28,243 nucleotides of DNA. It comes from a virus. This document shows, piece after piece, positions 351 to 19,893 of the stretch; within the stretch, counting starts at the first letter, position 1, and each line of letters starts with the position of its first letter. Made by a program: the position numbers and the translations under genes. The stretch covers positions 1-28,243 of IMG/VR virus record IMGVR_UViG_3300025030_000358; one strand, written 5' to 3'. The notes beneath the pieces are model-generated. The model was not told the origin of the DNA and ran no database searches. It saw nothing but the letters and a program-made list of their open reading frames with translations.

Positions 351-1787
351 ATGGCAATTTTACTAGATACAATTCGCGGGCTTTCTGATAGTAAATGGTC
401 TGGCATAGTCGGGAGCGTATATGCCAGTATCGGACTTGATATTCACAGCACGCCCGGACTATTAAAGGTTCACCAAAAATTGTCAAAAGATTCGGGTTCA
501 ACAGTAACAGAGTTTTGCAGATTAAAAGTTTCCGCTTCCAACGGATACAGTTTTTGGTTCAGCTATACCAGCGGGAAAATATGGGCAAGATCATCGGCAG
601 GAACATGGACATTGGCTTATACAACAGTTCCCGGCGCCGGGAACGCCGGATGTTTGGGGGCGGCCGAATATAACGGATATATTTATTGGGCGACGCAAAG
701 CCGTCTTCACCGAGTAACAATTGCCGGAGCTGATGATTCTTGGGCGGCCGGCGCGGTCAGTCTTAATTGGGCGACATTTTCAATAACCGATTCGGAATTT
801 CATCCTATGGCTCAACAAGACAATAGATTGTTTATCGGCGATGGATATTATGTGGCGGAAGTAAACGAAGCTGGCACTTTTAATGACAATGTTTTGGACA
901 TTAAAACTCCTCACAGAATAAAATGCATAATAGATTACGAACTTGATATTTTGCTTGGCACAATTGTGGCGACGACTGTTTCGCGCGCGGAAGTTATCCG
1001 GTGGGATACGATTTCTTCTTCTTGGAATACATCCGATCCGATAAACGAAACCGGAATTAATGCTTTTATAAGAGATGATAATTATGTTTATGTTCAAGCT
1101 GGCCGGGCCGGAAACATATATTTTTACAATGGAGAAAAATTAGAGCCGTTTAAGCGTATTCCCGGCGATTATTCTAATGTCAAATATGGAGAAGTTTATC
1201 CCGATTCGGTCGGAAACTTTAAAGGTGTGCCGGTATTTGGTTTTTCCAATAGTTCAGAATCGGGCAATTCTACCGGCAATCCGGCCCCGCAGGGAATATA
1301 TTCTTTCGGCTCTTATTCGCGCGATTATCCAAAGGTTATGGACTTATCATGGGTGATATCCCAGAATTTAACCGCTAATATAGAGATTGGAGCCGTCTTG
1401 GTGCAAGATTTTGATTTATTTGTGGCGTGGAAAGACGGAAACAATTATGGAGTGGATAAGATAGATTATACCGCAAAATATGCTTCTGCTTATTTTGAAA
1501 CAAGGATGTTGTTCCAAGACAAACGAGATGCGCTTAAAACATTGTCCGAAGTTTATTGTTTATACAATTCTTTGCCTGCCAGTTGCGCTATCACTTTTTC
1601 ATATTCAATCAATGGAGTCGCATATATTGAAATGACTTCCACTACTGATAGTATTTTAAATAAGATTTATGTTGAAGCCGTCAGTGTGCCAAATATCGGC
1701 AGTTTGCAGATAAAGGTAGCCTTTACAGTTTCCAGCAACAATGCGCCTACCTTAGAAATTCCATTAGGAGCTAATTTTGAAGAATAA
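351..1787 (+). CDS. Beta-rich phage virion/tail protein
   Basis: This 478-residue protein is rich in Gly, Ser, Asn, Thr and aromatic residues and has the alternating pattern of an all-beta fold. Several repeated blocks of the type YIYWAT, RLFIGDGYY and NYVYVQAG, spaced by about 40-60 residues in the first 280 residues, suggest a propeller-like domain. The last 100 residues form a second beta domain. There is no signal peptide and no catalytic motif that I can see. It lies directly before a beta-helix tail spike, so a tail hub, tail tubular or adaptor role is likely. The start is the ATG right after the previous TAA, without a Shine-Dalgarno site. Structural role likely; exact part unknown. 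Confidence 0.75.
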   Translation: MAILLDTIRGLSDSKWSGIVGSVYASIGLDIHSTPGLLKVHQKLSKDSGSTVTEFCRLKVSASNGYSFWFSYTSGKIWARSSAGTWTLAYTTVPGAGNAGCLGAAEYNGYIYWATQSRLHRVTIAGADDSWAAGAVSLNWATFSITDSEFHPMAQQDNRLFIGDGYYVAEVNEAGTFNDNVLDIKTPHRIKCIIDYELDILLGTIVATTVSRAEVIRWDTISSSWNTSDPINETGINAFIRDDNYVYVQAGRAGNIYFYNGEKLEPFKRIPGDYSNVKYGEVYPDSVGNFKGVPVFGFSNSSESGNSTGNPAPQGIYSFGSYSRDYPKVMDLSWVISQNLTANIEIGAVLVQDFDLFVAWKDGNNYGVDKIDYTAKYASAYFETRMLFQDKRDALKTLSEVYCLYNSLPASCAITFSYSINGVAYIEMTSTTDSILNKIYVEAVSVPNIGSLQIKVAFTVSSNNAPTLEIPLGANFEE

Positions 1788-1788
1788 A

Positions 1789-3399
1789 ATGCCTATCATA
1801 GAAACAAAACCAATAGATTTTAGTAAAACAAAGCTTTCTTATTTTTCTTTAAGGCGATCAATTCAATCAACAGGAGAAACAATAAGAAGGCGCGATATTG
1901 CTTTGGGTAATAAAGTAACCAATGTTTTTCCCGGTCAAGATATTCAAAAGGCCATTGATAAGGTCAATAAACTTGGCGGAGGGACTGTTTTTCTAAAAGT
2001 AGGCACTCATTCTTTAATCACCGACTTGACTTTGTATTCCAACATTTATCTGCAAGGAGAAAATGCCGGAAGTTCTATTATAAGTTTTGGCAATAATGCC
2101 AAACAAATTAAAATTGTCGGATCGGGAGCTTATTCAACAGGAACAATAGCGATAACCAATGGCGGGGTTACGGTAACCGGAACAACAACTTCTTGGCTGG
2201 CCAATGTTTCAGCAGGACAAAATATAATGATTAAAGGCATCTGGTATCCCATATCAGCGGTTGTTTCCGACACTGAATTAACTATCGCTATTCCTTATGC
2301 CGATATTAATGTATCGGGAGTAACTTATGTTGCGGCCACAACTATCAATGAAGTGCAGTTAATAAATTTTACAATTACAGCTTCTGGAACAGCGGCGGTA
2401 AAAGCTCAATATGGAAGCGAAATATTTTTAAGAGACATTAATATACAAGCCAGCGTATCTGGTTTAGATTTTGATGATTGTTCACAATCTTCTTTCCACG
2501 AAATTGATTTAGTGGCCAATTACAGCGGGGCTGATTTTAATAACTGCCATTTTACGATATTTGACGCTTGTGGAGTGCTAGATTCCTTGACGGGGAACGG
2601 AGTAACAATGACTAATTGTTCCAGTATGGCTTTGAATGATTTTTTCATATTAAACTCGGCGGGCGACGGATTAAGTATGACCAATTGTGAAGACATAAAA
2701 ATATCCGGTAATTTTACCGAAAATGCCGGACAGGGAATAGAGTTTGTGTCGGGTAATGACAATATTGATGTGGATAGTTTTATTTTTAAAAAAAATGGTT
2801 CAGATGGAGTTAAGTTTACAGCCACAATGGACAATTGTCATATAGGTAAAGGAGTGTTTAAAAATAACGGCGGATATGGAATAAATATCGCCGCCTCTTC
2901 TTGTAATGATAACATTATTTCCAGTTGTATTTTTACGGGAAACACTTCTGGCGGATTAAATGATTCCGGTGTTGGAACGATAAGTCTGGGCAATGTCGGA
3001 CTTAACGCGCTAGAAACCAAAGAACATTTTAGATTTAAAAATACATCCGGCGGATCATTGGCGGCGGGAGATTTAGTCACCTTTAAGGCAGTAGCGGCGG
3101 GCGATGAAGTTACAACCACAACGATACAAGGAGATGATTTGATTTTCGCTATGGCGGTGGAAACTATCACCAATAATTCTTACGGCCGGTTTCAGACTCT
3201 CGGCAAAACAACTGCGCTAAAAGTTGATGGCACAACCGATATAGCCATTGGAGATTTTATTGGCTCATTCACTTCTGCCGGAATAGGAATGAAAGCGGCC
3301 GCTGGGGATATGGCAATAGCGATAGCTCTGGAAGCTTATACCGCCAATGATAGCAACGGAGTGATAGATGCATTATTGATTAAACCAAGAAAAATTTAA
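1789..3399 (+). CDS. Tail spike/fibre with parallel beta-helix
   Basis: A protein of 536 residues. From about residue 48 the pattern PGQDIQKAIDKVNKLGGGTV, then VGTHSL and a predicted run of short strands, is the entry of a pectate-lyase-like right-handed beta-helix. Repeating rungs with an NC step (DFDDCS, DFNNCH, MTNCSS, MTNCED) continue to about residue 390 and form an Asn/Cys ladder. From about 407 a separate beta domain (HFRFKNTSGGSLAAGDLVTF onward) resembles small trimeric fibre or head-decoration modules. Phage beta-helix proteins usually bind or cut surface polysaccharide as trimers; I cannot point to catalytic residues. The ATG at 1789 follows the previous stop. A TTG at 1777 with AGGAG six bases upstream is an alternative start adding four residues. 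Confidence 0.82.
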   Translation: MPIIETKPIDFSKTKLSYFSLRRSIQSTGETIRRRDIALGNKVTNVFPGQDIQKAIDKVNKLGGGTVFLKVGTHSLITDLTLYSNIYLQGENAGSSIISFGNNAKQIKIVGSGAYSTGTIAITNGGVTVTGTTTSWLANVSAGQNIMIKGIWYPISAVVSDTELTIAIPYADINVSGVTYVAATTINEVQLINFTITASGTAAVKAQYGSEIFLRDINIQASVSGLDFDDCSQSSFHEIDLVANYSGADFNNCHFTIFDACGVLDSLTGNGVTMTNCSSMALNDFFILNSAGDGLSMTNCEDIKISGNFTENAGQGIEFVSGNDNIDVDSFIFKKNGSDGVKFTATMDNCHIGKGVFKNNGGYGINIAASSCNDNIISSCIFTGNTSGGLNDSGVGTISLGNVGLNALETKEHFRFKNTSGGSLAAGDLVTFKAVAAGDEVTTTTIQGDDLIFAMAVETITNNSYGRFQTLGKTTALKVDGTTDIAIGDFIGSFTSAGIGMKAAAGDMAIAIALEAYTANDSNGVIDALLIKPRKI

Positions 3400-5149: not shown

Positions 5150-8100
5150 ATGGCTAATGTTTTTGATAAATACTTGGAAGAAAAACCGATTTCTCAAGAT
5201 AATCTTTTTGAGAGATATTTACCTGTGGAAGAAAAAAAAACTATTCCTCCGACGGAAGTAAAAAAAGAAGAAAGAGTTTTTGAATTAATAACCGCGCCGG
5301 AAAAAGAGCCCTTTAAAGATACATTTTTAAAAAAACTCGGCCGAATTGTTGTTCCTAAATCTTTGGAAATAAGACTGGGTTTGCGCGAATCGACAATGGC
5401 GGAAGATATGATGAGCCAAGAAGATGCCCGTCTTTCTTATTATCGGCAGAAAGATTTTGAAAAACGCTACCAAAAAGAAATCAAAGAAGACCCTCAAATT
5501 CCCAAAGAATATAAAGAGCCGGAATCTGTTGTCGGCCAAATAGCGGAAGGAATAAAATATGGCTATCGCGCTACTGTTATTCCAGCTATTGGATATATGG
5601 CCGAAGCCACTGGCCAACAAGCAGGATCACAAAGAATGATTAAGTGGGGCTCGGAGTTTGGCGACAAGGCCACAATTAACTTATTAAAACACCCGGAACT
5701 TTTCCGACCAAAGGAAATAGAAACTTTTTTTGGCGGTGGTTATAAACATCCTAGTTTTTACGGCCGAATTATCGGGGAAACAATACCTTTTATTGTTTCC
5801 ACTATTGGCATGAGCGTGGCTGGCGGTATTTTAGGCGGTCCTGCTGGAGCGGGCATTGGCGGTTATGCCTCTGTTTATGCCCTAGAAAAAGGCAATGCCT
5901 ATAAATCAATGCTTGATAATGGTATTGCCCCCGACAAAGCGGCGGTGGCCTCGGATATTTATGGTGTGATAGCTTCCGCTATAGAAAATAGTTTTGGTAT
6001 TTCGCCGGTTAAAATAGGCCAGCGGGTTTTTTCTCAAAATGCCAAAATGATTGCCGTAAAAAGCTTTAAAGAATATTTGGCCAAAGAATTGCCCCGATTA
6101 AGTATTACAACATTAAAAACCGCCTTAACAGAAGGAAGTGAAGAATTGGCGCAAAGTTTTTCTGAAAAAGTCATTACCAAATGGATGGATGAGAATACGG
6201 AAGTTTTCACCAAAGACATGTTGGAAGAATTTGTTGCCGGTTTTGTTGGCTCCATTCCCTTCGGCGCGGCGGAAATAAGAAAACCAAATATCGTAAAAAT
6301 GACTGAGGGTGGAGATATAATAAAGGAAGAAGAAAAACCCATTAAAGCTCTTGAACTTCAAAAAATGGCCGAAAAAGAAATTGAGGAGAAAAAAGCCATT
6401 GTTCCCGAAAAAAAAGAATTGATTGAAGAAAAACCGCGAGAGAAAGAGTTGCCAGAGATTAAAGCCATAGAATCGGAAGAAATTATAAAAGAGATACCGG
6501 AAAAAATTCAAGATATGGCCAGTGAGGACTGGACAGAAAATTATGCTCCCAAATATGAAGAAATTTATAATAAAGCGGCGGATATTCAAAAACAAATAAA
6601 AGAAGTGGGCGCCAAGGAAAAACCGCCCCTACAAATAAAGCTTGATGAGTTTAATTCTCAGCTTGGCAAAATGGAGGATGAATTTATAAAAAAATGGCAA
6701 GAAAGCGCCGAAAAAGAGGTTGAAAAACCAAAGGAGGTAGTAACACCCGAAAAGGAAGAAAAAGCTCCGGAAATCGCAAAAGAAGTGGCAAAAAAAGGGA
6801 TTGTAGAGGAAAAGAAGCTCAAAAAAGGAGAAAAAGCATTTGAAATCATTCTTGATAATGGAGAAAAAATAAGCGTTGTGTTTGAACCGGACAGTTTCCC
6901 GGGTGTAAATCATTTTGAATTTAAAACAGAAGGAGTTAACGCCATTTCTGAAACTGGCTATCTAAGCTCTTTTATAAATAAAGAAGAAATGAAAAATTTG
7001 TCGCCAGAGGAAGCCGCTCTGAAATTAGGAAATGCGCTTGCAAAACAAGAAGAAATTGAACGGCCAAAAAGAGAAAAACAAAGAAAAAAGCTTGGGTTGC
7101 CAAAAACTGAACAACAATTAGCCGCAGAAAAAAAAGAAAAGGAAACCAAAGAAGAAAAATTTGAAATTGAAATTGAGGCGGAAAAACCGGAAGAGGTTGC
7201 CAAAGAAGAAATAAATGTAGAAAAAAAATCAACCGAACTTTATGGAAAAACCTTTGATAAACTTACAAGAAAACAACGTCTTAATGTCATTAAAGAAACA
7301 AAACAACCGTATTTTATAAATGATTTGGCAAAAGCGATAAAGCTTTTTGCGACACCCGCTTTTGCTAAAAATCAATTTGAGATGAAAGGAGAGTTTTTGT
7401 ATGATGGTTTAAATAAGCATATTTTTACCGACACTTTCCAAATGATTATAAAAAAAGAACCGGCTGATAAAATCCTTAATGACATTTTGGAAAAAACAAA
7501 AAAGAGGGAAATTGAAAAAATAACTAAATTTGACATTCCTTATGCTCAAGCGGAAAAACAAATAAACGAGAAAATAACTCAAGCGCGCGAGGATTATAAA
7601 GGCAAGTTTCCCGATTATGAAAAAATAATTCCAGAAGTAATTGGCGAAGAAATTGTTTTAGTGGGAATAACTTCTGATCCCGTGGAAATGTTTGTATTTA
7701 ATATAGGCGACAAACAGCTTGCTTTAAACCCGGATTATTTGGCTCACATGGTTAAAAACTTGCCGGGCGCAAAGATAACCGTCGTTTCTCCACAAGAGCC
7801 GATAAGGTTTTCTGAAAACGGGAAAATTGTCGGTCTTTTGATGCCTATCAGATTGGAAAAGGATATCTTGATAGAAAAGCCAAAGACTGGTAAAATAAAA
7901 ATATATGGAAAAGGAACTCAAAATAATGGGCGTGATATTGCCAAAGGAGGACTACCCAATGTTGCTGAGATGGTTCAAGAGAAATCCGCAGACCCTGGAA
8001 GACCAAGTAAAGAGCGTGGCGGAGAAGTGGCACCAAGGCGACATAGCGAGCGCGTGTCAGTCATTGGAGAGCGACCTGCAACAAGGGTAAGCAATCAAGA

Positions 8101-11100
8101 AATAGAAGATTTGATAAAAAGCAAAGATACTTTTTCTGATGAAGAAAAAGAGCTTTTAAGGCAATACACCGGAGCTGGCGGACTAGAAAGGCAGGGTGCG
8201 GAAGGCAGAGGGCTTTTAGATGAATACTATACACCCAAAGTCGCCGTAAAATTGGTTTGGGATTTGGTAAAAGAATATACGAATGTAAACAAAGAAAATA
8301 TAAATATTTTAGAACCTAGCGTCGGTATAGGCAGTTTTTTGGAATTTACTCCCAAAACAGCCAGCATAGAAGCTTTTGAAATCAATCCGATAAGCGCCAA
8401 AATAGCCAGCGTTCTTTATCCTGAAGCCGGAATTGAAAATGCTCCATTTGAAACTCTTTTTGTAACGGACAGGGGCGGGAAGAAAACAATCACCCCCGTT
8501 TATGATATAACCATAGGCAACCCTCCTTACGGCGAGCATCGGGGAAAATATAAAGGCTTGGGCGAAGAGCCGGGAATTTCCAAATATGAAACATATTTTA
8601 TCAAGCGGGCTTTGGATGTGACCAAGGAGGGCGGAATAGTGGCTTTTGTTTTACCCTCCAGTATTTTGCGCGGATTTCAAACATTGTCTGGTAAAAAAGA
8701 AATAGCGAAAATTGGAGATTTGATAGACGCTAGGCGTTTACCAAACAGCACCTTTGCTTATACCGATATAGGCACAGATATTCTTGTTTTTAAAAAATCT
8801 TTGGCTAAAAATGATTTTGACATAAGTGTTCGTTTGGCGTTTTTGTCCAATGATTCTTATTTTGAACAACACAAAGAAAAAATTTTAGGCGTGGAAAAAG
8901 AGCGCAGGGGGCGATTTGGTATAGAAAAATACGTGGAAGGACAATTACCGGAAGCCCAAGATTTTGAAAAAGAATTGCCTGAAGACAAAAAAGACATAAT
9001 TGTTGACGAACCCATTGGCGATAAATTCATTGAAGAAGACGAGCAAAAGGTTCCTCTTAATGTGGAAGATGGAAACGTTGAACTCGGAGAGGGAATGGCT
9101 AATGTGGACGAAAAAACAAAAAAAGAAGCAAATAGCAAGGTTGTTATTGTTTCTGATAAAAAAGATAAAACAATATCTTTTAATTCAGGCTTAACGGCGA
9201 AAGATATTGTTTTATGGAAAGAAACAACAGCCACTGGCGAATTAACGGAAAAAGGAATAGAACTAGCATCCGCCGAAGAAAAAAATCTTTATGGCGGAAA
9301 GTGGTTTAATAATTTTAATTATTTTCAAGGAAATATTTATGAAAAGATGGACCAATTAGAGAGAGAAAAAAACAAAATTTCCAATGAACAATATCAAAAA
9401 CAAAAAAGAGGATTGGAAGAAATATTGCCCAAACCTCAAACCATTGAAAATATAATCGTCTTGCCGACTTCTGATTTTGCGCGGGAAATGAATTTTAAAG
9501 ACGGAGAAACCTTAATTGATAAATTCAAAGAATACATCAAAGATTTGCATTATGACGCTTTTGAATCTTCAAGTAGTTGGGAAATTACTGGATATATAAA
9601 TGGATCAAGCGTGACTGGAAGCGACAAAATAATGAACATGGAAATTCGCCGGCGCCGCAGAAAAATAGGCGACAAACTGATGAAGAAGTTTTTAAATGAA
9701 GAATTAAATGAAGCGGAGAAAACGGAATTTGAAGATAAATTCAATAGAAGTTTCAATAATTACATCCGGCCGGACTACACAAAAGTCCCGCTTCTCGCTC
9801 CTATAAATTCCACTTTTAAAGGGAAAAAACTTAATGTTAAACCGATTCAGATCGAGGGCGCCGGATTTTTAACCAATAAAGGATTAGGCTTGTTGGCTTA
9901 CGATGTCGGTGTTGGAAAAACCTTGACTTCAATTTTGGCCATCAATGAAGTTTTAAAAAGAGGTTGGGCAAAAAAGCCACTTTTAATTGTCCCCAACGGG
10001 GTTTATCAAAAGTGGATTAAGGAAATTAAAGATTTGATCCCCGGAGTAAAAATAAATTCTTTAGCTAATCTGGGTGGAAAATTCAAAGGCGATCTGGCCT
10101 CCTTGGAAATTGAAGATGGAAGTTTGTCTATTGTGACTTATGACGGTTTGACCAAGTTGGGTTTTACCGAAGAAACTTACCAAGAATTACTTCTTGACCT
10201 AAAAGATGTAATGACCGGAGTCAATACAACAAAAAGGGGCGAAGCCAAAGAAGAAGAAAAAATTGCCGAAGCTATCGGCCGGGCCGCGCGAGAAACAAGA
10301 GGCGATAGGTTTTTTGAAGATTTGGGATTTGATCACATTACAATAGACGAGGTTCATAATTTTAAAAACATTTTTTCCGGAGCTAAAGTCCAAGAAAGAA
10401 ACAATGAATTTAAAAGCGTCCGGGGTTCCAGTTCAATTCGGGGTATTAAAGCTTATATAATGGCTCAATACGTTTTAAAGAAAAACAACAACCGCAATGT
10501 TTTTGGATTGTCCGCCACGCCATTTTCTCGAAGTCCGCTGGAAATTTATTCCATTTTAAGTCTTTTTGCCAAAAGAAAATTGGAACAACTGGGCATTAAA
10601 AACGTCAATGATTTTATGACAATGTTTATGAAACTAGAGCCGAAGCCGCAAGTAAAGGCCGACAGAACGGTGCAAGTGGAAGATGTCATTGAAAGCTTCC
10701 ATAATTTGCAACAAATGCAGAAACTTATAAGCGAATATATAGATTTCCGGACAGGAGAAGAAGCTGGAATAAAAAGACCATCTAAAATAAAAAGAACGAT
10801 TATTTTGTCGCCCACCGCCACGCAGTTGGATTATTTGGATTTAGCGCAGGGTTTATATGATGACAAAGATGCCGGCGGGGCGATAGTTTCAATAACTGAA
10901 CAGCAAAACATAACTCTAAGCCCTTATCTTTCTCGCTATAATCAAAAAAAACCGACTTATAAAGAATTTGTGGAGGACAGCCCCAAAATAAGGTTTACTA
11001 TGGAGGCCATTAAGCAAATCAAAAAAGATAATCCCAAGAGTAATCAGATTATTTATATGCCGCGCGGAGTTGAATTTTATTTTTTATTGAAAGAGTATCT

Positions 11101-14100
11101 TATTAAAGAGCTTGGATATAAAACGAACGAAATAGGAGAGATTAAAGGAGGAATGAGCGCGGACGCCAAATACAATATTCAAAATCAGTTTAATGACCCC
11201 AAACATTCGCTAAAAATATTGATAGGAAGCGAAACAATGAAAGAGGGAATGGACTTGCACGAAAATACTACGGAATTATATCATCTATTCTTGCCGTGGA
11301 ATCCCACTGACATTTTGCAAGTGGAAGGACGATTGTGGCGACAGGGCAATGTTTGGAAAAATGTCCGAGTGCATTATCCTTTGATTGAAAACAGTGTTGA
11401 TCAGTTTTTGTTTCAAAAACTGGAAACAAAAGAAAAACGAATCAAAAATGTCTGGAGTTACACCGGCAATGAAATTGAAGTCGGTGATATAAATTTTGAA
11501 GAATTGAAACTGGACTTGATAACAGATCCGGTTATGAGAGTTGACGCTGAAAGGAAAATTGTCAAAGCCACTGAACAAGGGCGACTTGAAACAATGAAAG
11601 CGGAGTTGTCTTTTATGACTAGGGTGAATAAGGGAGTGGAAGAAACAAAAAGCGAAATTGAGTCCGTCGAAAAAGACTTGAAAGAGGGAAAGGAAGGGTA
11701 TTGGTATGAACAAGCCAAAAAACAATTACCAAAACTAAAAAAGAAACTTATAAAAGCCGAAGAAAAACTTAAGGGAATTGATGTGGTGGAATTGAATAAT
11801 AGAATCAAAGAAAAAGAAACTGAAATAAAAAAACAAGAAGAAATGGTGGAAAAAATTGACACTGATTTTGAAAACAAAAGGAAAGAAGCTGAAAACAAGA
11901 GGGTTGAAATAATTGTCAAACAAAATGATTATGACTTGCATGTTTCTGAAATTGCCAACGAAAATAAGGATTTTTATACAAGAGAAATAGAACAAAACAG
12001 GCAAGACGAATCAATTGGAAGCGGCGCTGTGGGGGCTTCCATTGGAGCTTTCGCGGAAAACACGCCGATTGAATTTGGCGGTATGGACAAAATCAAGCCT
12101 GTGGAGTTCCCGGAATTGGTGCAATTAGCCAAAGACTTGACGGGACAAACGCCGTCGTTGAAAAAATTCAGACGGGCATTGGGCAGATTCTATTCTATTC
12201 AAAAAGGAAAAATTAAACTTCATCCGGATTTATTTAAAAGAGAAAATTCCAGTCAACTAGCTAAGGTTTTTGCCCACGAAATAGGCCATTTGATTGATTA
12301 TTTACCGAGTCAAACCTTAAAAAGAGGCCACTTGCTGAACCGGCTTTTGACTTTGCGCAAATTTATGAAAGAAAAATATGGCGACTTAAAAATCACAAAC
12401 AGCCAAATAAGAAAAGAATTGACGACAGTAAGTCATTATTGGCGGCCAATGCCGGAAGTGGCCAGTCCGAGTTATCTTGCCTATCGCAAAAGTTCCAAAG
12501 AATTATATGCCGATGCTTTGTCTTTATTGCTTAATTCTCCCGGAACACTAGAGAGAATGGCTCCAACTTTTTATGAAACATTTTTCCAATTTTTAGATGA
12601 AAAGCCGGAAGTGAAGAGTAGTTATTTTGAATTGCAGGCCGTTTTAAACGGCACGCGCCAAACCTTGATTGAATTAAGACGGACTGGCGTTAAGAAAATG
12701 TTTGATGAGGGGGATTATAAGGCGGCCGAACTGCAAAGATTAAAAAATGATGAAAAGAAAAAAAGGGAAAGCAATCTGCTTTTTAAATTAAAATTTGAAT
12801 TATTGGAAAAAAGTCAGGCCGTCCGAGATAAGGTTGCTCAACTTAAAAAGCGAGGAGTGCATATCAACGACGATGAAAACCCTGTTTTTTTTCTTGAAGA
12901 AAAAAATTATCTCGGCGGGAAAATTAAAGCCATACTGGAAACAAAATTTCAAACTATTTACGATGAGTTGGCCCAAAAAGACATTTCTTGGAACGATTTC
13001 GGCGAGGTTTTGTTTTATGAGCGTATTTTGGCTGGGGATAGAACGGAATTGGCCAACCCTCGCGGTTTGACTCCGGAAGCCGTCCTTGAGTCATATAACG
13101 ACCTTAAAAAGCAAATGGGCGAAAACTGGCCGTTTGTGTTGCAAAAAATGGATGAATTTAGAAAAAGACTAAAAGAGGTGGCCACGGAAGCCTACAATGC
13201 CGGTTTATACACGCCGGAATTATATGAGCGCATGCAAGAAAATCCTAAATATGTGACATTTCAAGTTATCGAGCATTTAGAAAACGGGATGAGTTCAAAG
13301 GTTCATCATCAAGTGGGAACACTTAAAGACATTACCAATCCGGCCAGCGCTTCTTTGCTTAAGATGGTGGAAACAATCAAGGCTATCGAACGCAACAAGG
13401 TTAACCGGTCTATCGTGGAACTTTTGAAAAAAAACTTTTCCAATGAAATCAAAGACGCCAAGGTGGTTTATGACGGCAAAGGAATGAGAGCTGTTCCATC
13501 AAGACATCAGTATGAAGAAATGCTGATTGTTATGGAAAAGGGGAAAGCTAAAGGATATTATGTTGATGATTATATTCAAAAATCCGTTAGTTATAATACT
13601 ATCGGACAAAACAGCGCTGTTTTAGGAGCAATTAAATTGTCCAATCGTGCGTGGTTCAGACCTGCTTTTATTACTTTCAACATGGGTTTTCAGTCTTTTA
13701 ATGCCATAAGAGATTTTTTAAGATTTTGGAAAAACACTCCCAAACTATCTTTCTTTCGGGCAATAAAGCGTTATGGACAGGCGGCGCGAGTAGCCAAAAT
13801 CAGAGCTTTCGGCTTACCCCAAAATCCAACCGCTTCAGATTTGGAAGCGCAAAAAATAATCCAAAACTTGGAATATGATCAAGTGTTCTCTATCAAATTT
13901 AGTGATTTTATTTTAGGCGAGCAGGTGGAGGATACTCAGATTCAGCATTTAATGTCTACTTTTGATATTGGTCTAAAAGAAAAAAGACATATTCCGGCTA
14001 TAAGTTCAATTTTGAATTTTATTAAAAATACGGGCGATTTGATTGAAACACTGCCAAAGGTGGCTGGGTATTATGAATTGCGCGACGGGGGAAAATTAAC

Positions 14101-15292
14101 CAAAGAACAAAAAAGTTTTCTGCGCCGCAAAATCGGTTCGCCAGACTTTTTGGCTGGCGGGCATTTAAAGCCAGTCACCAATGAATTGTTTCTTTTTTCC
14201 AACGCCATTTTGCAAGGCATAAGATCTGACATTGAAACAGCGATTGACCCCCAAACTAGAAGCGGTTATTGGTGGAAAACAGCCGCTCTTAATTTTTTAC
14301 CCAAAGCCATAATGTATGCCATTTTAATGGGATTGATGGGCGACGATTATCGCAAGATGATGGAAGAAGCCAGTGAATATGATAAAACCAATTACATCGT
14401 TATCCCTTTGGGTAGGACCAATGGCAAAACAGTTTATCTAAGATTTCCGCAAGATGAAATGGGTAGGGTGCTGGGCGGTTTGTTTTGGAAAATGCTTAAA
14501 ATCACCAGATCGAGCCAATTTGCCTTAAGCGATTTTACGGATATTATCAGCTATACTGGCGGACAACTACCTAGCCTTGCTCCTGTTTTTGAAGTAACGG
14601 GAAGTTCGTATCAATTTCTTTCTGGGAAAAATCCTTATGATACATTCCGCGGGGAATCTGTTTTAACCGATGACGAATATCGCGCCGGAGGGCTTTATGC
14701 TTTAAAACCATTTTTAAAATGGCAATGGAATCAGCTCGGCGGTGGTATTTTTGTGAGATTTAGTGTTCATGACGGTGTGCCCAAAGAAGCCGGACTGGGC
14801 GAGAAAATTTTAAGCTATCCGATAGTAAGCAACATCGCCGGGCGGTTTATCCGCATTTCCGATTTTGGCCGGACGGAAATGTTTCAAAAAACCATTAAGG
14901 GTGTCCAAAAAGAAGAATCTCGCGAGAGGCTAAAAGAGCGCGCTATAATTAATAAATACATAGACCAGTATCAAGAAGCCGACTCGAAAAACGAAGACAT
15001 ACCAAAACTCATAAAAGAGGCCACCAAAGAAGTGTTTAAGGGTCAGATCAAAACAGTTTCTGAGGTCAAAGGATTTCAAAAAAGATTTGAAATATCGCTA
15101 ATAAGAGGCCAAAGCGACGCCAATATCAATGCCTTAATCAATAAAACAATAGACGAACAAATGGCCTTATTAAAACAAATGAAAGAACAAATGGACAAAG
15201 AAGGTTTCAACGAAATATTTATTTTCGCGCAAAAACACAACATTATCAGTAAAAACACGGCTCAAAAATTCTTTGAGATGCAGAAAAAATGA
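5150..15292 (+). CDS. Giant polyvalent protein: methyltransferase, SF2 helicase, metallopeptidase
   Basis: 3380 residues. Residues 207-245 are Gly-rich and hydrophobic (SVAGGILGGPAGAGIGG) and may insert in a membrane. About 385-730 is Lys/Glu low complexity. An N6-adenine methyltransferase follows: lead-in YTGAGG, motif I EPSVGIG (1055-1061), catalytic NPPYG (1124-1128). An SNF2-like SF2 helicase has Walker A DVGVGKT (1585-1591), DEVH (1733-1736), SAT (1788-1790) and motif VI QVEGRLWRQG (2057-2066). A coiled coil spans about 2160-2270. A gluzincin-type peptidase has HEIGH (2376-2380) with likely third ligand E2451 in KELYADA. The C-terminal 900 residues contain FNAIRDF (N2851), which recalls large polyvalent protein-associated domains. 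Methyltransferase plus SF2 helicase is the DarB antirestriction plan; location among virion genes suggests packaging and ejection with the DNA. That role is inferred. Stop overlaps the next ATG. Confidence 0.9.
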   Translation: MANVFDKYLEEKPISQDNLFERYLPVEEKKTIPPTEVKKEERVFELITAPEKEPFKDTFLKKLGRIVVPKSLEIRLGLRESTMAEDMMSQEDARLSYYRQKDFEKRYQKEIKEDPQIPKEYKEPESVVGQIAEGIKYGYRATVIPAIGYMAEATGQQAGSQRMIKWGSEFGDKATINLLKHPELFRPKEIETFFGGGYKHPSFYGRIIGETIPFIVSTIGMSVAGGILGGPAGAGIGGYASVYALEKGNAYKSMLDNGIAPDKAAVASDIYGVIASAIENSFGISPVKIGQRVFSQNAKMIAVKSFKEYLAKELPRLSITTLKTALTEGSEELAQSFSEKVITKWMDENTEVFTKDMLEEFVAGFVGSIPFGAAEIRKPNIVKMTEGGDIIKEEEKPIKALELQKMAEKEIEEKKAIVPEKKELIEEKPREKELPEIKAIESEEIIKEIPEKIQDMASEDWTENYAPKYEEIYNKAADIQKQIKEVGAKEKPPLQIKLDEFNSQLGKMEDEFIKKWQESAEKEVEKPKEVVTPEKEEKAPEIAKEVAKKGIVEEKKLKKGEKAFEIILDNGEKISVVFEPDSFPGVNHFEFKTEGVNAISETGYLSSFINKEEMKNLSPEEAALKLGNALAKQEEIERPKREKQRKKLGLPKTEQQLAAEKKEKETKEEKFEIEIEAEKPEEVAKEEINVEKKSTELYGKTFDKLTRKQRLNVIKETKQPYFINDLAKAIKLFATPAFAKNQFEMKGEFLYDGLNKHIFTDTFQMIIKKEPADKILNDILEKTKKREIEKITKFDIPYAQAEKQINEKITQAREDYKGKFPDYEKIIPEVIGEEIVLVGITSDPVEMFVFNIGDKQLALNPDYLAHMVKNLPGAKITVVSPQEPIRFSENGKIVGLLMPIRLEKDILIEKPKTGKIKIYGKGTQNNGRDIAKGGLPNVAEMVQEKSADPGRPSKERGGEVAPRRHSERVSVIGERPATRVSNQEIEDLIKSKDTFSDEEKELLRQYTGAGGLERQGAEGRGLLDEYYTPKVAVKLVWDLVKEYTNVNKENINILEPSVGIGSFLEFTPKTASIEAFEINPISAKIASVLYPEAGIENAPFETLFVTDRGGKKTITPVYDITIGNPPYGEHRGKYKGLGEEPGISKYETYFIKRALDVTKEGGIVAFVLPSSILRGFQTLSGKKEIAKIGDLIDARRLPNSTFAYTDIGTDILVFKKSLAKNDFDISVRLAFLSNDSYFEQHKEKILGVEKERRGRFGIEKYVEGQLPEAQDFEKELPEDKKDIIVDEPIGDKFIEEDEQKVPLNVEDGNVELGEGMANVDEKTKKEANSKVVIVSDKKDKTISFNSGLTAKDIVLWKETTATGELTEKGIELASAEEKNLYGGKWFNNFNYFQGNIYEKMDQLEREKNKISNEQYQKQKRGLEEILPKPQTIENIIVLPTSDFAREMNFKDGETLIDKFKEYIKDLHYDAFESSSSWEITGYINGSSVTGSDKIMNMEIRRRRRKIGDKLMKKFLNEELNEAEKTEFEDKFNRSFNNYIRPDYTKVPLLAPINSTFKGKKLNVKPIQIEGAGFLTNKGLGLLAYDVGVGKTLTSILAINEVLKRGWAKKPLLIVPNGVYQKWIKEIKDLIPGVKINSLANLGGKFKGDLASLEIEDGSLSIVTYDGLTKLGFTEETYQELLLDLKDVMTGVNTTKRGEAKEEEKIAEAIGRAARETRGDRFFEDLGFDHITIDEVHNFKNIFSGAKVQERNNEFKSVRGSSSIRGIKAYIMAQYVLKKNNNRNVFGLSATPFSRSPLEIYSILSLFAKRKLEQLGIKNVNDFMTMFMKLEPKPQVKADRTVQVEDVIESFHNLQQMQKLISEYIDFRTGEEAGIKRPSKIKRTIILSPTATQLDYLDLAQGLYDDKDAGGAIVSITEQQNITLSPYLSRYNQKKPTYKEFVEDSPKIRFTMEAIKQIKKDNPKSNQIIYMPRGVEFYFLLKEYLIKELGYKTNEIGEIKGGMSADAKYNIQNQFNDPKHSLKILIGSETMKEGMDLHENTTELYHLFLPWNPTDILQVEGRLWRQGNVWKNVRVHYPLIENSVDQFLFQKLETKEKRIKNVWSYTGNEIEVGDINFEELKLDLITDPVMRVDAERKIVKATEQGRLETMKAELSFMTRVNKGVEETKSEIESVEKDLKEGKEGYWYEQAKKQLPKLKKKLIKAEEKLKGIDVVELNNRIKEKETEIKKQEEMVEKIDTDFENKRKEAENKRVEIIVKQNDYDLHVSEIANENKDFYTREIEQNRQDESIGSGAVGASIGAFAENTPIEFGGMDKIKPVEFPELVQLAKDLTGQTPSLKKFRRALGRFYSIQKGKIKLHPDLFKRENSSQLAKVFAHEIGHLIDYLPSQTLKRGHLLNRLLTLRKFMKEKYGDLKITNSQIRKELTTVSHYWRPMPEVASPSYLAYRKSSKELYADALSLLLNSPGTLERMAPTFYETFFQFLDEKPEVKSSYFELQAVLNGTRQTLIELRRTGVKKMFDEGDYKAAELQRLKNDEKKKRESNLLFKLKFELLEKSQAVRDKVAQLKKRGVHINDDENPVFFLEEKNYLGGKIKAILETKFQTIYDELAQKDISWNDFGEVLFYERILAGDRTELANPRGLTPEAVLESYNDLKKQMGENWPFVLQKMDEFRKRLKEVATEAYNAGLYTPELYERMQENPKYVTFQVIEHLENGMSSKVHHQVGTLKDITNPASASLLKMVETIKAIERNKVNRSIVELLKKNFSNEIKDAKVVYDGKGMRAVPSRHQYEEMLIVMEKGKAKGYYVDDYIQKSVSYNTIGQNSAVLGAIKLSNRAWFRPAFITFNMGFQSFNAIRDFLRFWKNTPKLSFFRAIKRYGQAARVAKIRAFGLPQNPTASDLEAQKIIQNLEYDQVFSIKFSDFILGEQVEDTQIQHLMSTFDIGLKEKRHIPAISSILNFIKNTGDLIETLPKVAGYYELRDGGKLTKEQKSFLRRKIGSPDFLAGGHLKPVTNELFLFSNAILQGIRSDIETAIDPQTRSGYWWKTAALNFLPKAIMYAILMGLMGDDYRKMMEEASEYDKTNYIVIPLGRTNGKTVYLRFPQDEMGRVLGGLFWKMLKITRSSQFALSDFTDIISYTGGQLPSLAPVFEVTGSSYQFLSGKNPYDTFRGESVLTDDEYRAGGLYALKPFLKWQWNQLGGGIFVRFSVHDGVPKEAGLGEKILSYPIVSNIAGRFIRISDFGRTEMFQKTIKGVQKEESRERLKERAIINKYIDQYQEADSKNEDIPKLIKEATKEVFKGQIKTVSEVKGFQKRFEISLIRGQSDANINALINKTIDEQMALLKQMKEQMDKEGFNEIFIFAQKHNIISKNTAQKFFEMQKK
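7959..8090 (+). CDS. Possible overprinted small ORF inside the giant gene
   Basis: An ORF in a different frame (+1 relative to the giant gene) encodes 43 residues from ATG 7959, or 61 from ATG 7905. ATG 7959 has AAAGGAGG at 7943-7950, eight bases upstream, the best Shine-Dalgarno match I noticed in the window. The product starts MLLRWFKRNPQTLEDQ, includes VAEKWHQGD and ends SLESDLQQG: a normal-looking, likely helical sequence. In the same bases the giant protein has an odd Arg/Pro/Gly-rich linker (for example PSKERGGEVAPRRHSER) that uses CGT and CGA Arg codons, and local GC rises. This suggests selection in the second frame. It could also be a recently inserted linker. No function proposed. 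Confidence 0.35.
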   Translation: MLLRWFKRNPQTLEDQVKSVAEKWHQGDIASACQSLESDLQQG

Positions 15293-16094: not shown

Positions 16095-16208
16095 ATGGAT
16101 TACCAAAAATTATCGCGCGTATTATGGGGACTCCTGCTCGTGTCGATGGGAGTGAACCTTTACGCGTTTTTTTTATTCAATAAAATCATCAATTCATTAC
16201 TGCAATGA
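16095..16208 (+). CDS. 37-residue single-span membrane protein
   Basis: The ORF runs from ATG 16095 to a TGA at 16206-16208 that overlaps the ATG of the ERF gene (ATGA). It encodes 37 residues starting MDYQKLSRVLWG, with one hydrophobic span (about residues 9-28, LLLVSMGVNLYAFFLF) and the short polar tail NKIINSLLQ. It is the first ORF after the candidate promoter and appears translationally coupled to ERF. There is no Shine-Dalgarno site. The codon pattern and tight overlap argue that it is translated; the function is unknown. It could serve mainly to deliver ribosomes to the ERF start. Confidence 0.55.
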   Translation: MDYQKLSRVLWGLLLVSMGVNLYAFFLFNKIINSLLQ

Positions 16209-17134
16209 CAAACAAAAAAACAAGCGTTGCCATCGTGGCAACGCCGGGAGTAACCAATCAATCAAACACCCATTCTTTGATTGGTCCGGAAGCGTTGATT
16301 GCCCAAGCCATAGACAGAGGGGTATCAGTGGAAACCATGGAGCGATTACTGGCAATGAGAAACCAGCTCAAAGCGGAAGCGGCCAAGGAAGCGTTTGACA
16401 ATGACATGGTTTTACTTCAAGGGGAAATGCCAACAATTAAAAAAACAAAAGAAGTAAGAACAAAAATGGGGAAAAAAGCGTATTCTTACGCTCCCATTGA
16501 ATCTATAGTTGAACAAACCAAGACCATCATCCAAAAATATGGGTTTAGTTATATTGTCAAAACCGAAATGATCAAAGACGAAAAAAGCAAGATTACCGGA
16601 GTTAAATCAACTTGCTCGGTCAAGCACAAATTGGGTCATTCCGAAGAAAGTCCGATGGAGGTGCCACTGGGCAACAAGACCGACATTATGAGTGATTCGC
16701 AGGTAGTGGCCGCCGCCTCCACCTTTGCCAAGCGTTATGCTTTCTGTAATGCCTTTGGAATAATGACGAGCGATGAAGATACCGATGCCGCCGACGGAGC
16801 CGCTCCACCCAAAGACAAACTCGTTCCAGATGAAAGTTTAAGTCGTTACGAGAAAGCGTTGCGAGCCATTTCTTTAAGTAAAGATACTGGGTATTTGATC
16901 GATTCAGACGGGAAAATAATGGCGGGAAAAGTATATAGCGAAGATGAAAAAAAGAAATTACATACCGCAATAGAAAAAAGAGTGAATGAATTGGATAATG
17001 GCGCGCCACAGGAATTTCTTTGCCAAGGAGAAGGGTGCACCAATCCCATTACCAAAGCAGAGGCAGAATATTCACAAAAGATTTTTAAGAAAAACCTATG
17101 TCGAAATTGTCAGAAATTAAATGCAAAAAAATAA
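16205..17134 (+). CDS. erf: ERF-family single-strand DNA annealing recombinase
   Basis: A 309-residue protein. Residues about 25-200 match the ERF superfamily pattern: an N-terminal helical part (MERLLAMRNQLKAEAAKEAF), then GEMPTIKKTKEV, KKAYSYAPIESIVEQTKTII, a beta core with VKHKLGHSEE, and the conserved QVVAAASTFAKRYAFCNAFG with the acidic SDEDTDAAD end. ERF proteins anneal complementary single strands in phage recombination and genome circularisation. The C-terminus carries C273-x4-C278 and C299-x2-C302, which would form a small zinc ribbon not found in the core family. The gene overlaps the membrane ORF upstream and is followed three bases later by a RecB-like nuclease, a natural partner for making single strands. 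Confidence 0.9.
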   Translation: MTNKKTSVAIVATPGVTNQSNTHSLIGPEALIAQAIDRGVSVETMERLLAMRNQLKAEAAKEAFDNDMVLLQGEMPTIKKTKEVRTKMGKKAYSYAPIESIVEQTKTIIQKYGFSYIVKTEMIKDEKSKITGVKSTCSVKHKLGHSEESPMEVPLGNKTDIMSDSQVVAAASTFAKRYAFCNAFGIMTSDEDTDAADGAAPPKDKLVPDESLSRYEKALRAISLSKDTGYLIDSDGKIMAGKVYSEDEKKKLHTAIEKRVNELDNGAPQEFLCQGEGCTNPITKAEAEYSQKIFKKNLCRNCQKLNAKK

Positions 17135-17137
17135 TTT

Positions 17138-17968
17138 ATGAACGAAAAAGAAATTTACGGAGGCTCAATCAAAGTTAAATTAGCCGGCGAGCATATTTAT
17201 TACATCGCTAAAAAGGGAATTGACGGCCAATGGGGAAAATGGGAAAGAATAACCGGTGTTACCACTATTGGCGGAATTAAAGACAAATCCGGTCCGCTTA
17301 AATATTGGGTAGCCAAGATAATGGCGCGGTTCCTCCACGAAATTTTGGAAAAAGAAGAACGAGGAATAACGAAATACGATATTGATGAAGCCAAGAAAAT
17401 CCACACGCAAAGACTTAAGGAAGCCGGAGGGTTTGGAACCAAAATTCACGATTGGTGCGAAAATTATACAAAAGGACTTAATCCAGCAATGCCAGAAGAA
17501 AAAAATGTCATTGTTGGAGTTAATGGTTTTCTTGATTGGCTCAACAGCTCAAAAGCCAAAATAACAGAAAGTGAGACTATAGTTTACTCCAAGAAGTATG
17601 ATTTTAGCGGTAAGATTGACGCGGTAGCGATGATTAAGGGCAAAAGATACCTTATTGACTACAAAACAGGCACAGGCCTCTACAACGACGTTTTATTGCA
17701 AACGGCGGCCTATGCCAAATCTTACGAAGAAATGACCGGCAATAAAATTCATGGCCGATGGGCAATCCGCATTGAAAAAAGGGATGAGGATGAATTCCGT
17801 TCCGATATGGATGAGAAGGGCGCGCCCAATATGGAATATTTGCCGTTCGAGGCTGTGTATCTTGATGAGGACAAAGAACAGATAGATTCGGATTATAGGG
17901 CATTTTTAGCTTTCTGGGAAGGCTTTAAATGGAACAAAAAAACTGGAGACTTTTTCAAAAAAGTCTAG
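17138..17968 (+). CDS. PD-(D/E)XK nuclease, RecB/Cas4-like
   Basis: A 276-residue protein with the ordered motifs of a PD-(D/E)XK nuclease: E146 in SETIVYS, D161 in GKIDAVA, D174-x-K176 in LIDYKTG and Q in LLQTAAYA. The N-terminal 130 residues are helical and contain FGTKIHDWCE, the usual early His helix of RecB-type phage nucleases. No 4-Cys iron-sulfur cluster is visible, so it is closer to RecB/lambda-exonuclease-like phage proteins than to true Cas4. With ERF just upstream, the pair looks like a two-part exonuclease-annealase recombination system. It ends in TAG; in-frame reading beyond this codon gives seven more residues and ends at a TAA overlapping ATG 17992. Confidence 0.87.
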   Translation: MNEKEIYGGSIKVKLAGEHIYYIAKKGIDGQWGKWERITGVTTIGGIKDKSGPLKYWVAKIMARFLHEILEKEERGITKYDIDEAKKIHTQRLKEAGGFGTKIHDWCENYTKGLNPAMPEEKNVIVGVNGFLDWLNSSKAKITESETIVYSKKYDFSGKIDAVAMIKGKRYLIDYKTGTGLYNDVLLQTAAYAKSYEEMTGNKIHGRWAIRIEKRDEDEFRSDMDEKGAPNMEYLPFEAVYLDEDKEQIDSDYRAFLAFWEGFKWNKKTGDFFKKV

Positions 17969-18009
17969 AACAATAAAGGTCGCACTTATTAATGTTTTTT
18001 ACACACAAA

Positions 18010-18261
18010 ATGGATTCAGTGAAATCTTGGTTGGAAGTGTTAATCTGCGGGTTGGTTGCTCACCCTGAGAAAGTTCAAGTTACGGCGACTTCTGATGATA
18101 TGGGGGTGCTATTTACCGCTAAGGTCGATCCGGAAGACAACGGAAAAATAATCGGCAAGGGCGGGAATACCGCTAAAGCCATTAGAGATTTGTTGCACGT
18201 GGCCGGCTTTGGACATAAACTCAGAGCTTCGCTTAAAATAGACGCGCCGGACAGGAAATAA
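18010..18261 (+). CDS. khpA: KH-domain RNA-binding protein, KhpA-like
   Basis: An 83-residue protein that is essentially one type II KH domain. It has the KhpA-like lead-in (LEVLICGLVAHPEKVQV), a strand LFTAKVDPED, and the GXXG loop as IIGKGGNTAKAIRDLL (GKGG at 49-52), followed by a short C-terminal strand. KhpA proteins bind RNA in bacterial cells, often with KhpB, and influence division, translation or small RNAs. A phage copy inside the replication block is unusual. ATG 18010 gives the usual family length; ATG 17992 adds six residues and is equally possible. The phage version may act on phage RNA, but that is inference. Confidence 0.82.
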   Translation: MDSVKSWLEVLICGLVAHPEKVQVTATSDDMGVLFTAKVDPEDNGKIIGKGGNTAKAIRDLLHVAGFGHKLRASLKIDAPDRK

Positions 18262-18265
18262 GACA

Positions 18266-18326
18266 AAAGGATAAAAATAGTTAGAACGCAAAAAAACAAA
18301 TAAAAGGCTAACTATTTTTATCCTTT
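18266..18326 (+). terminator. Perfect 19-bp inverted repeat after the KH gene
   Basis: AAAGGATAAAAATAGTTAG at 18266-18284 pairs perfectly with its complement at 18308-18326 around a 23-base A-rich loop. It lies just after the KH stop and before the initiator promoter, so it probably ends the upstream transcript. The stem is AT-rich and no U-run follows, so it is not a textbook terminator and could instead be a protein-binding or RNA-processing site. Confidence 0.5.
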
Positions 18327-18349
18327 AAACTTAAAAACGAAAGGGCAAA

Positions 18350-18377
18350 TTGACAGTAAAATAAAGAGGAGTAAAAT
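18350..18377 (+). promoter_or_regulatory. Promoter for the replication initiator
   Basis: A perfect TTGACA (18350-18355) and TAAAAT (18372-18377, five of six matches) are 16 bases apart. The predicted start is near 18384, only a few bases before the ATG of the 34-codon leader ORF. It sits between two hairpins in a gap with no other gene. Confidence 0.65.
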
Positions 18378-18387
18378 AAATAATAAG

Positions 18388-18492
18388 ATGAAGCAAGATG
18401 CGATGAAAAATTTAATAGAATTTTTAGTAAAAAGCGACAACACTTTTTTCCCTTTCATCGGGGAGCTTCAAGTGTTGTCGCTTTTTGTTTGA
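18388..18492 (+). CDS. Possible 34-residue leader peptide
   Basis: ATG 18388 opens a 34-codon ORF (starts MKQDAMKNLIEFLVK, ends LQVLSLFV) that stops six bases before the initiator ATG. Its second half is written across the 17-bp hairpin. AGAGGAG at 18365-18371 is too far away to be a good ribosome site. The ORF could be a regulatory leader whose translation decides whether the hairpin forms, or a chance ORF. No homologue known to me. Confidence 0.3.
   Translation: MKQDAMKNLIEFLVKSDNTFFPFIGELQVLSLFV
18429..18486 (+). terminator. Strong hairpin in the leader of the replication initiator gene
   Basis: AAAAAGCGACAACACTT (18429-18445) pairs perfectly over 17 bp with 18470-18486; the loop can add TCCC/GGGA pairing. 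The 3' arm ends in CTTTTTGTTTG, so it can act as an intrinsic terminator. Because it lies between a good promoter and the initiator ATG 11 bases downstream, an attenuator role is plausible. A cruciform in the origin region is the alternative. Confidence 0.55.
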
Positions 18493-18497
18493 AATAT

Positions 18498-19319
18498 ATG
18501 AGCCAACGACGAATGTTTAGTCCAGATATTATATGCAGTGAGGAGTTTATTGATATGCCTGTATCAGCAAGGGATTTATATTATCAATTATCTATAAGAG
18601 CCGATGATGACGGTTTTATCCAACCAAGAATTATTATGAAGATGATAGGAGCTTCACAGGATGATTTAAAAATATTACTTGCAAAGCGGTTTTTATTGCA
18701 CTTTGATAATGGTGTTGTCGTTATCAAACATTGGTTAATTCATAATATGATACGCCTTGATAGATACAAAGAAACAAGATTTATGGAGGAGAAAAAAACT
18801 TTATTTATCAAGGGAAATAAGGCGTATACCGATAATACAGAAAATGGTAAACCGTTAATGGCAACCAAATGGCAACCAAATGACAACCAACGGTTGCCAC
18901 AGGTTAGGTTAGGTAAGGTTAGGTTAGGTAAGGTTAATAAAGAAGATGTCGCAATAGCGACCTTTAGCCAATGCTTAGCCGATGCTAAGCCAGAGGAGAG
19001 TAGAACAGAACAGATTGCGGAAACCGCAGAATGGGATTTTAAGAAATACTTAGAAGACTTAGAAAATCAACCCAGAAGAGATTTATCCATAATCGCCCTT
19101 TATTGGAAATTCAAGAAATTTAACTTCACAAACAAAAAACAAACCGAAATTGAAATACGCCGAAGTTTACGGGCGGCCAAAGACTTATCGCCTTTTGAAG
19201 ATGAAAAAATTTGGAAGACAATGGAATGGTTGAGCAAGAACGCTGATTTTAAATGGGTGTTGGAAAGTGTTGGAAAATATATCACGGAAAATTTATTAAG
19301 TTTAAAAATTAAAAAATAA
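18498..19319 (+). CDS. Phage replication initiator / replisome organizer
   Basis: A 273-residue protein starting MSQRRMFSPDIICSEEFIDM. The first about 100 residues follow the winged-helix layout of phage replisome organizers (SARDLYYQLSIRADDDGFI, then KMIGASQDDLKILLAKRFL, then VVIKHWLIHNMIRLDRYKET). These proteins bind the phage origin and bring in the host helicase or its loader. Residues about 121-145 are encoded by two sets of tandem repeats, giving the linker MATKWQPNDNQRLPQ and VRLGK repeated, often seen where such a gene carries its own origin. The C-terminal part (from about 180) is charged and helical. A TTG nine bases upstream would add three residues; the ATG is preferred. No Shine-Dalgarno site is visible. 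Confidence 0.75.
   Translation: MSQRRMFSPDIICSEEFIDMPVSARDLYYQLSIRADDDGFIQPRIIMKMIGASQDDLKILLAKRFLLHFDNGVVVIKHWLIHNMIRLDRYKETRFMEEKKTLFIKGNKAYTDNTENGKPLMATKWQPNDNQRLPQVRLGKVRLGKVNKEDVAIATFSQCLADAKPEESRTEQIAETAEWDFKKYLEDLENQPRRDLSIIALYWKFKKFNFTNKKQTEIEIRRSLRAAKDLSPFEDEKIWKTMEWLSKNADFKWVLESVGKYITENLLSLKIKK
18858..18890 (+). repeat. Three 11-bp iterons within the initiator gene
   Basis: ATGGCAACCAA occurs twice in tandem and is followed by ATGACAACCAA, one base different. CGGTTGCC follows directly and is an inverted partial copy. Tandem 11-bp units inside a replication initiator gene are typical of phage origins, each unit binding one initiator molecule per helical turn. See also the adjacent 15-bp repeats. 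Confidence 0.75.
18902..18931 (+). repeat. Two 15-bp tandem repeats (GGTTAGG type) within the initiator gene
   Basis: GGTTAGGTTAGGTAA is present twice in tandem and a third copy begins (GGTTAA). Each unit encodes VRLGK in the initiator frame. Together with the 11-bp iterons 12 bases upstream this makes a 75-base repeat cluster that is a good candidate for the phage origin of replication. Confidence 0.75.
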
Positions 19320-19320
19320 T

Positions 19321-19893
19321 ATGAACAAAAAAATCGCACAACTCTATAAAGGAAAATATGAGGAATTGGATATAGTATTCTCTCGTGTGTGGGCTATGCC
19401 GAGTCATTTAACATTCACTATCCACCCGATAAAAGCGATATTGGATAAATATGTGGGGGACGGCAAAGGTTGGGTAGACCCATTTGCCGGAGATAACAGC
19501 CCAGCCGAGTTTACAAATGACCACAATTCCGAAAGAAAAGCAAAATCTCATATTGAGGCGATTGCGTTTTGTGAGGGTTTGAGCGGCCGATATAAGGGGG
19601 TTTTGTTTGACCCGCCCTATTCATTCACACAAGTTAAAGAACACTATACCAATCTTGGGCAAAAGGTTACGAAAGAGAATACCTCAATGAAGTTTTACGA
19701 GGGGATAAAGACGGCTATGTGCGAGAAAATTGAAGCCGGAGGATATGCCATCTCCTTTGGTTGGAACACAAATGGCTTTGGAAAAGAACGTGGGTTCAAA
19801 ATCGTAGAGATTTTGGCGGTCGCACACGGTGGTTCAAAGAACGACACATTTGTTACTGTAGAAACGAAACTTGCAAACTTATGTCAAGAATAA
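19321..19893 (+). CDS. Small adenine-specific DNA methyltransferase
   Basis: A 190-residue protein with motif I-like VDPFAG (D53-G57) followed by catalytic DPPYS (D97-S101), the order of N6-adenine methyltransferases with the cofactor motif first. The remainder has SHLTFTIHPIKAILDKY before motif I and GGYAISFGWNTNGF after motif IV. It is short compared with free-standing Dam or type II enzymes, and lacks a clear target-recognition domain; this size is seen in phages. It would put methyl groups on phage DNA, for defence against host restriction or to mark replicated DNA. No restriction endonuclease lies beside it. It ends by overlapping the next ORF. Confidence 0.75.
   Translation: MNKKIAQLYKGKYEELDIVFSRVWAMPSHLTFTIHPIKAILDKYVGDGKGWVDPFAGDNSPAEFTNDHNSERKAKSHIEAIAFCEGLSGRYKGVLFDPPYSFTQVKEHYTNLGQKVTKENTSMKFYEGIKTAMCEKIEAGGYAISFGWNTNGFGKERGFKIVEILAVAHGGSKNDTFVTVETKLANLCQE

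Follow-up and report, generated by a model that had tools for sequence, protein, structure and literature searches.

A conserved small gene nested in the linker of a DarB-like methyltransferase-helicase gene of a candidate Patescibacteria phage

In a 28,243-nt viral contig (IMG/VR record IMGVR_UViG_3300025030_000358; hereafter the window), a short open reading frame (ORF) runs in the +1 frame of a giant gene, which raises the question of whether it is a gene in its own right. In the giant protein, a methyltransferase of Eco57I type is combined with a helicase of SNF2 type and possibly with a zincin domain. This union of adenine methyltransferase and SNF2-type helicase in a single giant phage protein places the gene that houses the nested ORF, by its domain content, among the DarB-like polyvalent proteins (PMC5512222). 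DarB of phage P1 is packaged in the virion, injected and shields the DNA from restriction (PMC5512222). In the main text of that survey, the words 'overlap' and 'TnpV' do not appear; the nested gene is an addition to it. The ORF sits in the linker that precedes the methyltransferase region and ends where this region begins (Table 1). It has 61 codons counted from ATG 7905 and 43 from ATG 7959, with its stop at 8088-8090, and the giant frame across the overlap reads GLPNVAEMVQEKSADPGRPSKERGGEVAPRRHSERVSVIGERPATRVS. Elsewhere in the window, 1777-3399 encodes a tail-fibre-like protein with a beta-helix region, 16205-19893 forms a replication/recombination block (ERF-type annealing protein, PD-(D/E)XK exonuclease, DnaD-like helicase loader and DNA methyltransferase), and a peptide deformylase gene lies at 25462-25923 (PF01327, 7.7e-17).

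Table 1. Giant gene, nested gene and candidate expression signals in the window
Feature	Position	Strand	Basis
Host gene of the DarB-like giant polyvalent protein (3380 aa; adenine methyltransferase and SNF2 helicase)	5150..15292	+	domain content
Promoter-like site of sigma70 type, TTGATA-17-TAAAAT, TG before -10	7868..7896	+	promoter score
Nested gene, +1 frame, predicted 61-aa protein MEKELKIMGVILPKEDYPMLLRWFKRNPQTLEDQVKSVAEKWHQGDIASACQSLESDLQQG plus stop	7905..8090	+	conservation, codon-position test, model
AAAGGAGG, Shine-Dalgarno site of the preliminary description; small-frame codons for K-E-D; no conservation in relatives	7943..7950	+	relatives
ATG proposed in the preliminary description; relatives have a codon for I, V, K or A here	7959..7961	+	relatives
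Methyltransferase region of the giant (aa 979-1220)	8084..8809	+	phrog_1685, 11801; Eco57I match aa 1117-1178
SNF2-type helicase region of the giant (aa 1580-2066)	9887..11347	+	domain match

It is the comparative evidence, and not the window sequence alone, that settles the reality of the nested ORF. A preliminary description of the window had noted a local rise in GC, which is real (0.538 at 7959-8090 against 0.380 in the whole giant gene, a value reached in 14 of 3337 windows of the same size), and Arg codons unlike those of the rest of the gene, which are indeed unusual in the overlap (AGA, CGT, AGG, CGA, CGC, CGA, AGG), but just mildly so. When the giant gene was shuffled synonymously, 95.5% of the shuffles had a +1 run of 63 codons or longer, and in 14.8% the region of the nested ORF itself was open. 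An open +1 run of this length is therefore unsurprising on its own. Neither Pfam nor PHROGs searches assigned the small protein to a family.

Relatives were sought with the methyltransferase and helicase segments of the giant as queries, and since such queries cannot favour the small ORF, the resulting sample is unbiased. Eight distinct IMG/VR contigs carry a close relative of the giant that spans the region (L085, L086, L087, L088, L090, L091, L092 and L094), and all eight keep a +1 ORF of 61-65 codons with the same protein and the same stop (consensus ...PILYxWAKxNPExLKRQLxSxA...LESDLQHG*). A ninth relative, L110, was found via the small protein and lies outside the unbiased set. Direct scans of viral contigs with the linker protein or with a long helicase-region query gave no matches; shorter conserved segments did, and DNA-level searches of phages and plasmids returned chance matches only. 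When the nested copies of the window and its nine relatives are compared pair by pair, identity is higher in the small frame than in the giant frame in all 45 pairs (0.44 versus 0.25). Divergence in the overlap of these copies is lowest at the third positions of the giant frame (0.32), the reverse of the adjacent methyltransferase, where third positions diverge most (0.66, nine of the ten loci). The preliminary description had proposed a second protein within the giant and looked to related genomes for stops in the small frame and unreduced synonymous change as signs to the contrary. In the relatives examined here, the small frame is open in 8/8 and synonymous change of the giant frame is strongly reduced, so that the proposal holds. 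The pattern of substitution shows the small frame to be under protein-level selection and the better conserved of the two. These comparisons strongly support a real overprinted gene at 7905-8090, the translation of which is itself predicted. A functionless ORF that arose by chance in the GC-rich linker would be unremarkable in length and would fit the shuffles, but it is contradicted by this conservation and by the reversal of codon positions, as well as by the free-standing homologues and the confident predicted fold described below, and can be practically dismissed.

The small gene was also found without an overlying giant, in three Patescibacteria MAGs of Candidatus Chisholmbacteria (L111), Roizmanbacteria (L112) and Blackburnbacteria (L113). 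Matches to it occurred in 6/374 and 2/380 genomes sampled around the Chisholmbacteria genome. Because free-standing copies occur in Patescibacteria genomes, we infer that the host of the phage is a member of the Patescibacteria, a group of very small bacteria of which most have not been cultured. In the neighbourhoods examined, a large serine recombinase lies 2 to 5 kb from the free-standing copies L113, L136 and L138, a terminase small subunit (TerS) is near L135 and L136, and restriction genes are near L136 and L138. The Patescibacteria regions L135, L136 and L138 resemble satellite or defence islands, in which the small gene is accompanied variously by the recombinase, the terminase small subunit and restriction systems.

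Where the small protein starts is a separate matter. The preliminary description had chosen ATG 7959, with AAAGGAGG as a Shine-Dalgarno (SD) site eight bases before it, in a window where nearly all starts lack such a site. The spacing is correct and the scarcity is confirmed, as an SD match of at least 4 bases precedes just one of the 22 gene starts; AAAGGAGG itself occurs in three copies in the window against 1.7 expected by chance. The proposed start does not hold up, since relatives have I, V, K or A in place of M19 of the 61-codon frame and AAAGGAGG is not conserved. AAAGGAGG is probably not the initiation signal. As M19 varies while small-frame conservation extends to residues on its N-terminal side, in free-standing copies too, the small protein most likely starts at ATG 7905 and is 61 aa long. 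A 43-aa product made from ATG 7959 on the giant's own mRNA would have a strong SD at 8-nt spacing. It would also have parallels in L088, with AGGAGGT before its start, and in the nested ORFs of proteobacterial phages, which probably use SD sites on the giant mRNA. Weighed against this are the lack of conservation of both ATG and SD, the 18 N-terminal residues of the conserved protein that it would leave out and the rarity of SD sites among window genes, and we regard the shorter product as distinctly unlikely.

The sequence upstream of ATG 7905 suggests another mode of expression. The motif TA[AT]AAT lies upstream of seven of the ten nested starts, at -14 in six of them, compared with 2.1-2.6% of control ATGs. 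The promoter-like site of the window ends 8 nt before ATG 7905, and its score is matched by 0.08% of control ATGs. Sites scoring above that of the window were found in L091, L094 and L110 and weaker ones in L086, L090 and L092, although L094 and L110 are near-identical, so that the promoter and motif counts are not fully independent. Upstream of the small ORF in L085, L087 and L088, and in the free-standing copies, the promoter-like site is absent; L088 has in its place the AGGAGGT, ahead of a GTG start. We infer from these signals that the small gene has a promoter of its own inside the giant gene and is transcribed into an mRNA almost without a leader. Translation would then begin at ATG 7905 on a separate transcript, and the small protein could therefore be made independently of the giant. 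Many gene starts of the window are preceded by A/T-rich sequence, which together with the one SD site among 22 starts suggests that the phage-host pair uses SD-independent initiation.

A conserved ORF (MNLxNWxxxAxxHWKExxPxxYxxLKxxGxLxxALxxAAEQT...) occupies the same linker in a proteobacterial-type set of 79 records, made up of 10 phage loci and 69 IMG/VR loci, with a few phages present in both collections. It is in the +1 frame in 79/79 records, from proteobacterial and cyanobacterial phages, and an SD match of at least 4 bases precedes 78 of the 79 copies, compared with 21% of control ATGs. In nearly all phage records listed, annotation gives the larger gene only over the nested ORF. No such ORF was seen in Leptospira phage LE1 or Bordetella phage PHB04, and the nested gene is thus not universal. 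The proteobacterial-type family is homologous to TnpV (profile comparison 41, shuffle maximum 19). TnpV (PF14198) itself also occupies this linker, again in +1, in plasmid giants of Listeria and Enterococcus and in one gut-element giant, preceded by SD-like sites, and the Listeria copy matches the Pfam TnpV family at 1.1e-6. The record OR846775.1 (L006), named Listeria phage LM 4-11-1, may be plasmid DNA; its ArdC-type giant region is common to many Listeria plasmids. Because upstream promoters show no clear excess over controls for the proteobacterial and Bacillota nested ORFs, these probably rely on SD sites on the giant mRNA. The constant +1 relation can be explained by codon composition, since on synonymous resampling of window-type genes 14-45% of the resampled sequences keep the giant-type frame open and almost none the other frame.

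In Sinorhizobium phage PBC5 (L011, 2746-9303), the N-terminal half of the giant continues in frame into a TnpV-like domain and the methyltransferase half is a separate ORF, which reflects either a real split or an old sequencing error. This fusion, like the SD-like sequence within the overlap, would suit a programmed +1 ribosomal frameshift, by which some ribosomes leave the giant frame and end at 8090, so that their product is the N-terminal part of the giant with the small protein attached to it as a tail. However, in 9 of the 10 nested copies the small frame is closed by a stop 6-21 nt ahead of the start (78 nt in L085), which leaves a frameshift little room. In addition, 78 of the 79 proteobacterial-type copies keep both start and SD site, and the free-standing copies have their own ATG. 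We therefore reject programmed frameshifting as highly improbable.

How the window protein relates to TnpV is less direct. TnpV of Tn4451-type elements resembles it in its +1 nesting in the linker before the methyltransferase of methyltransferase-SNF2 giants, in having free-standing members beside a large serine recombinase, and in being a short, mostly helical protein. It differs in length (about 110 aa against 61), and the window protein has no Pfam match; the PF14198 profile finds nothing in the window. Profile comparison of the window group with TnpV was no better than shuffles, and that with the proteobacterial group was marginal (9/200 shuffles). At present sensitivity, homology of the window protein to TnpV is unsupported. 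For the window protein, AlphaFold gives a confident, compact model with two strands and three helices (pLDDT 92.5); for the nested protein of the proteobacterial group, the prediction is confident from residue 1 to about residue 70. At E<=0.001, the fold search returned no PDB match for either protein and no match among viral models for the window protein. A role of TnpV in excision has been postulated from its homology to lambda Xis (PMC3158075), and the literature searched gives no established function for it. We tentatively propose that the small protein is a TnpV-like accessory protein of DNA transactions, acting in recombination, establishment or protection of the element, although we think this somewhat less likely than not to be its role. 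The earlier suggestion of a regulator or partner of the helicase-methyltransferase is also possible.

The explanation that we favour, and hold to be probable, is that 7905-8090 is a genuine 61-codon nested gene of a Patescibacteria phage, started at ATG 7905, served by an internal promoter and derived by capture. According to this model, a free-standing small gene of mobile elements would have been captured in the linker of the giant. The giant could have read through the captured gene because its -1 frame is often stop-free by chance, and the read-through would have become the Arg/Pro/Gly linker. The small protein would have been kept beside an enzyme predicted to protect incoming DNA. The data fit capture from a free-standing gene as well as the reverse direction and do not distinguish the two. 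In S. suis, mobilizable elements with a TnpV gene use snf2 genes of streptococcal ICEs as insertion sites (PMC9815147), which hints at a possible route of capture.

The same insertions, together with the serine recombinases near free-standing TnpV and window-type genes, would also fit a parasitic insertion, a mobile-element remnant that persists because the giant frame stays open and that brings the phage no benefit. A precedent is the ShiLan domain (PMC11855218), the closest published one, in which a second protein is likewise encoded out of frame within a phage methylase gene with no SD; its authors suggest leaderless initiation of this hidden HNH endonuclease. ShiLan differs in being an HNH endonuclease that is inserted in the methylase and spreads by homing, whereas the window product has no nuclease signature and sits in the linker before the methyltransferase domain. 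The candidate of a ShiLan-type hidden HNH element was rejected, as Pfam and PHROGs gave no nuclease match and the fold search no HNH-like match. No endonuclease or recombinase domain was found in the 61 aa by Pfam, PHROGs or the fold search. Moreover, the gene is present in 8/8 close relatives with a divergence comparable to that of the host gene, rather than sporadically, and has been under long-term protein-level selection. A remnant of no use to the phage is accordingly unlikely.

Small-gene nesting in methyltransferase-SNF2 giants is not described in the literature searched, and the nested family is new as far as that literature shows; overlapping genes as such are already known. It is conceivable, though we would not yet bet on it, that giants across several phyla share a +1 capture site for TnpV and its kin, and that in Patescibacteria phages the captured gene has its own promoter and a leaderless mRNA, uncoupled from a late giant. 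Our results add a conserved hidden gene family to the widespread antirestriction giants, in which a second gene recurs in one linker, in the same frame each time; standard annotation mostly misses it in many unrelated phages and plasmids. TnpV thereby becomes testable in cultured phages and plasmids. The findings also suggest a route by which overlapping genes may arise, namely gene capture by read-through.
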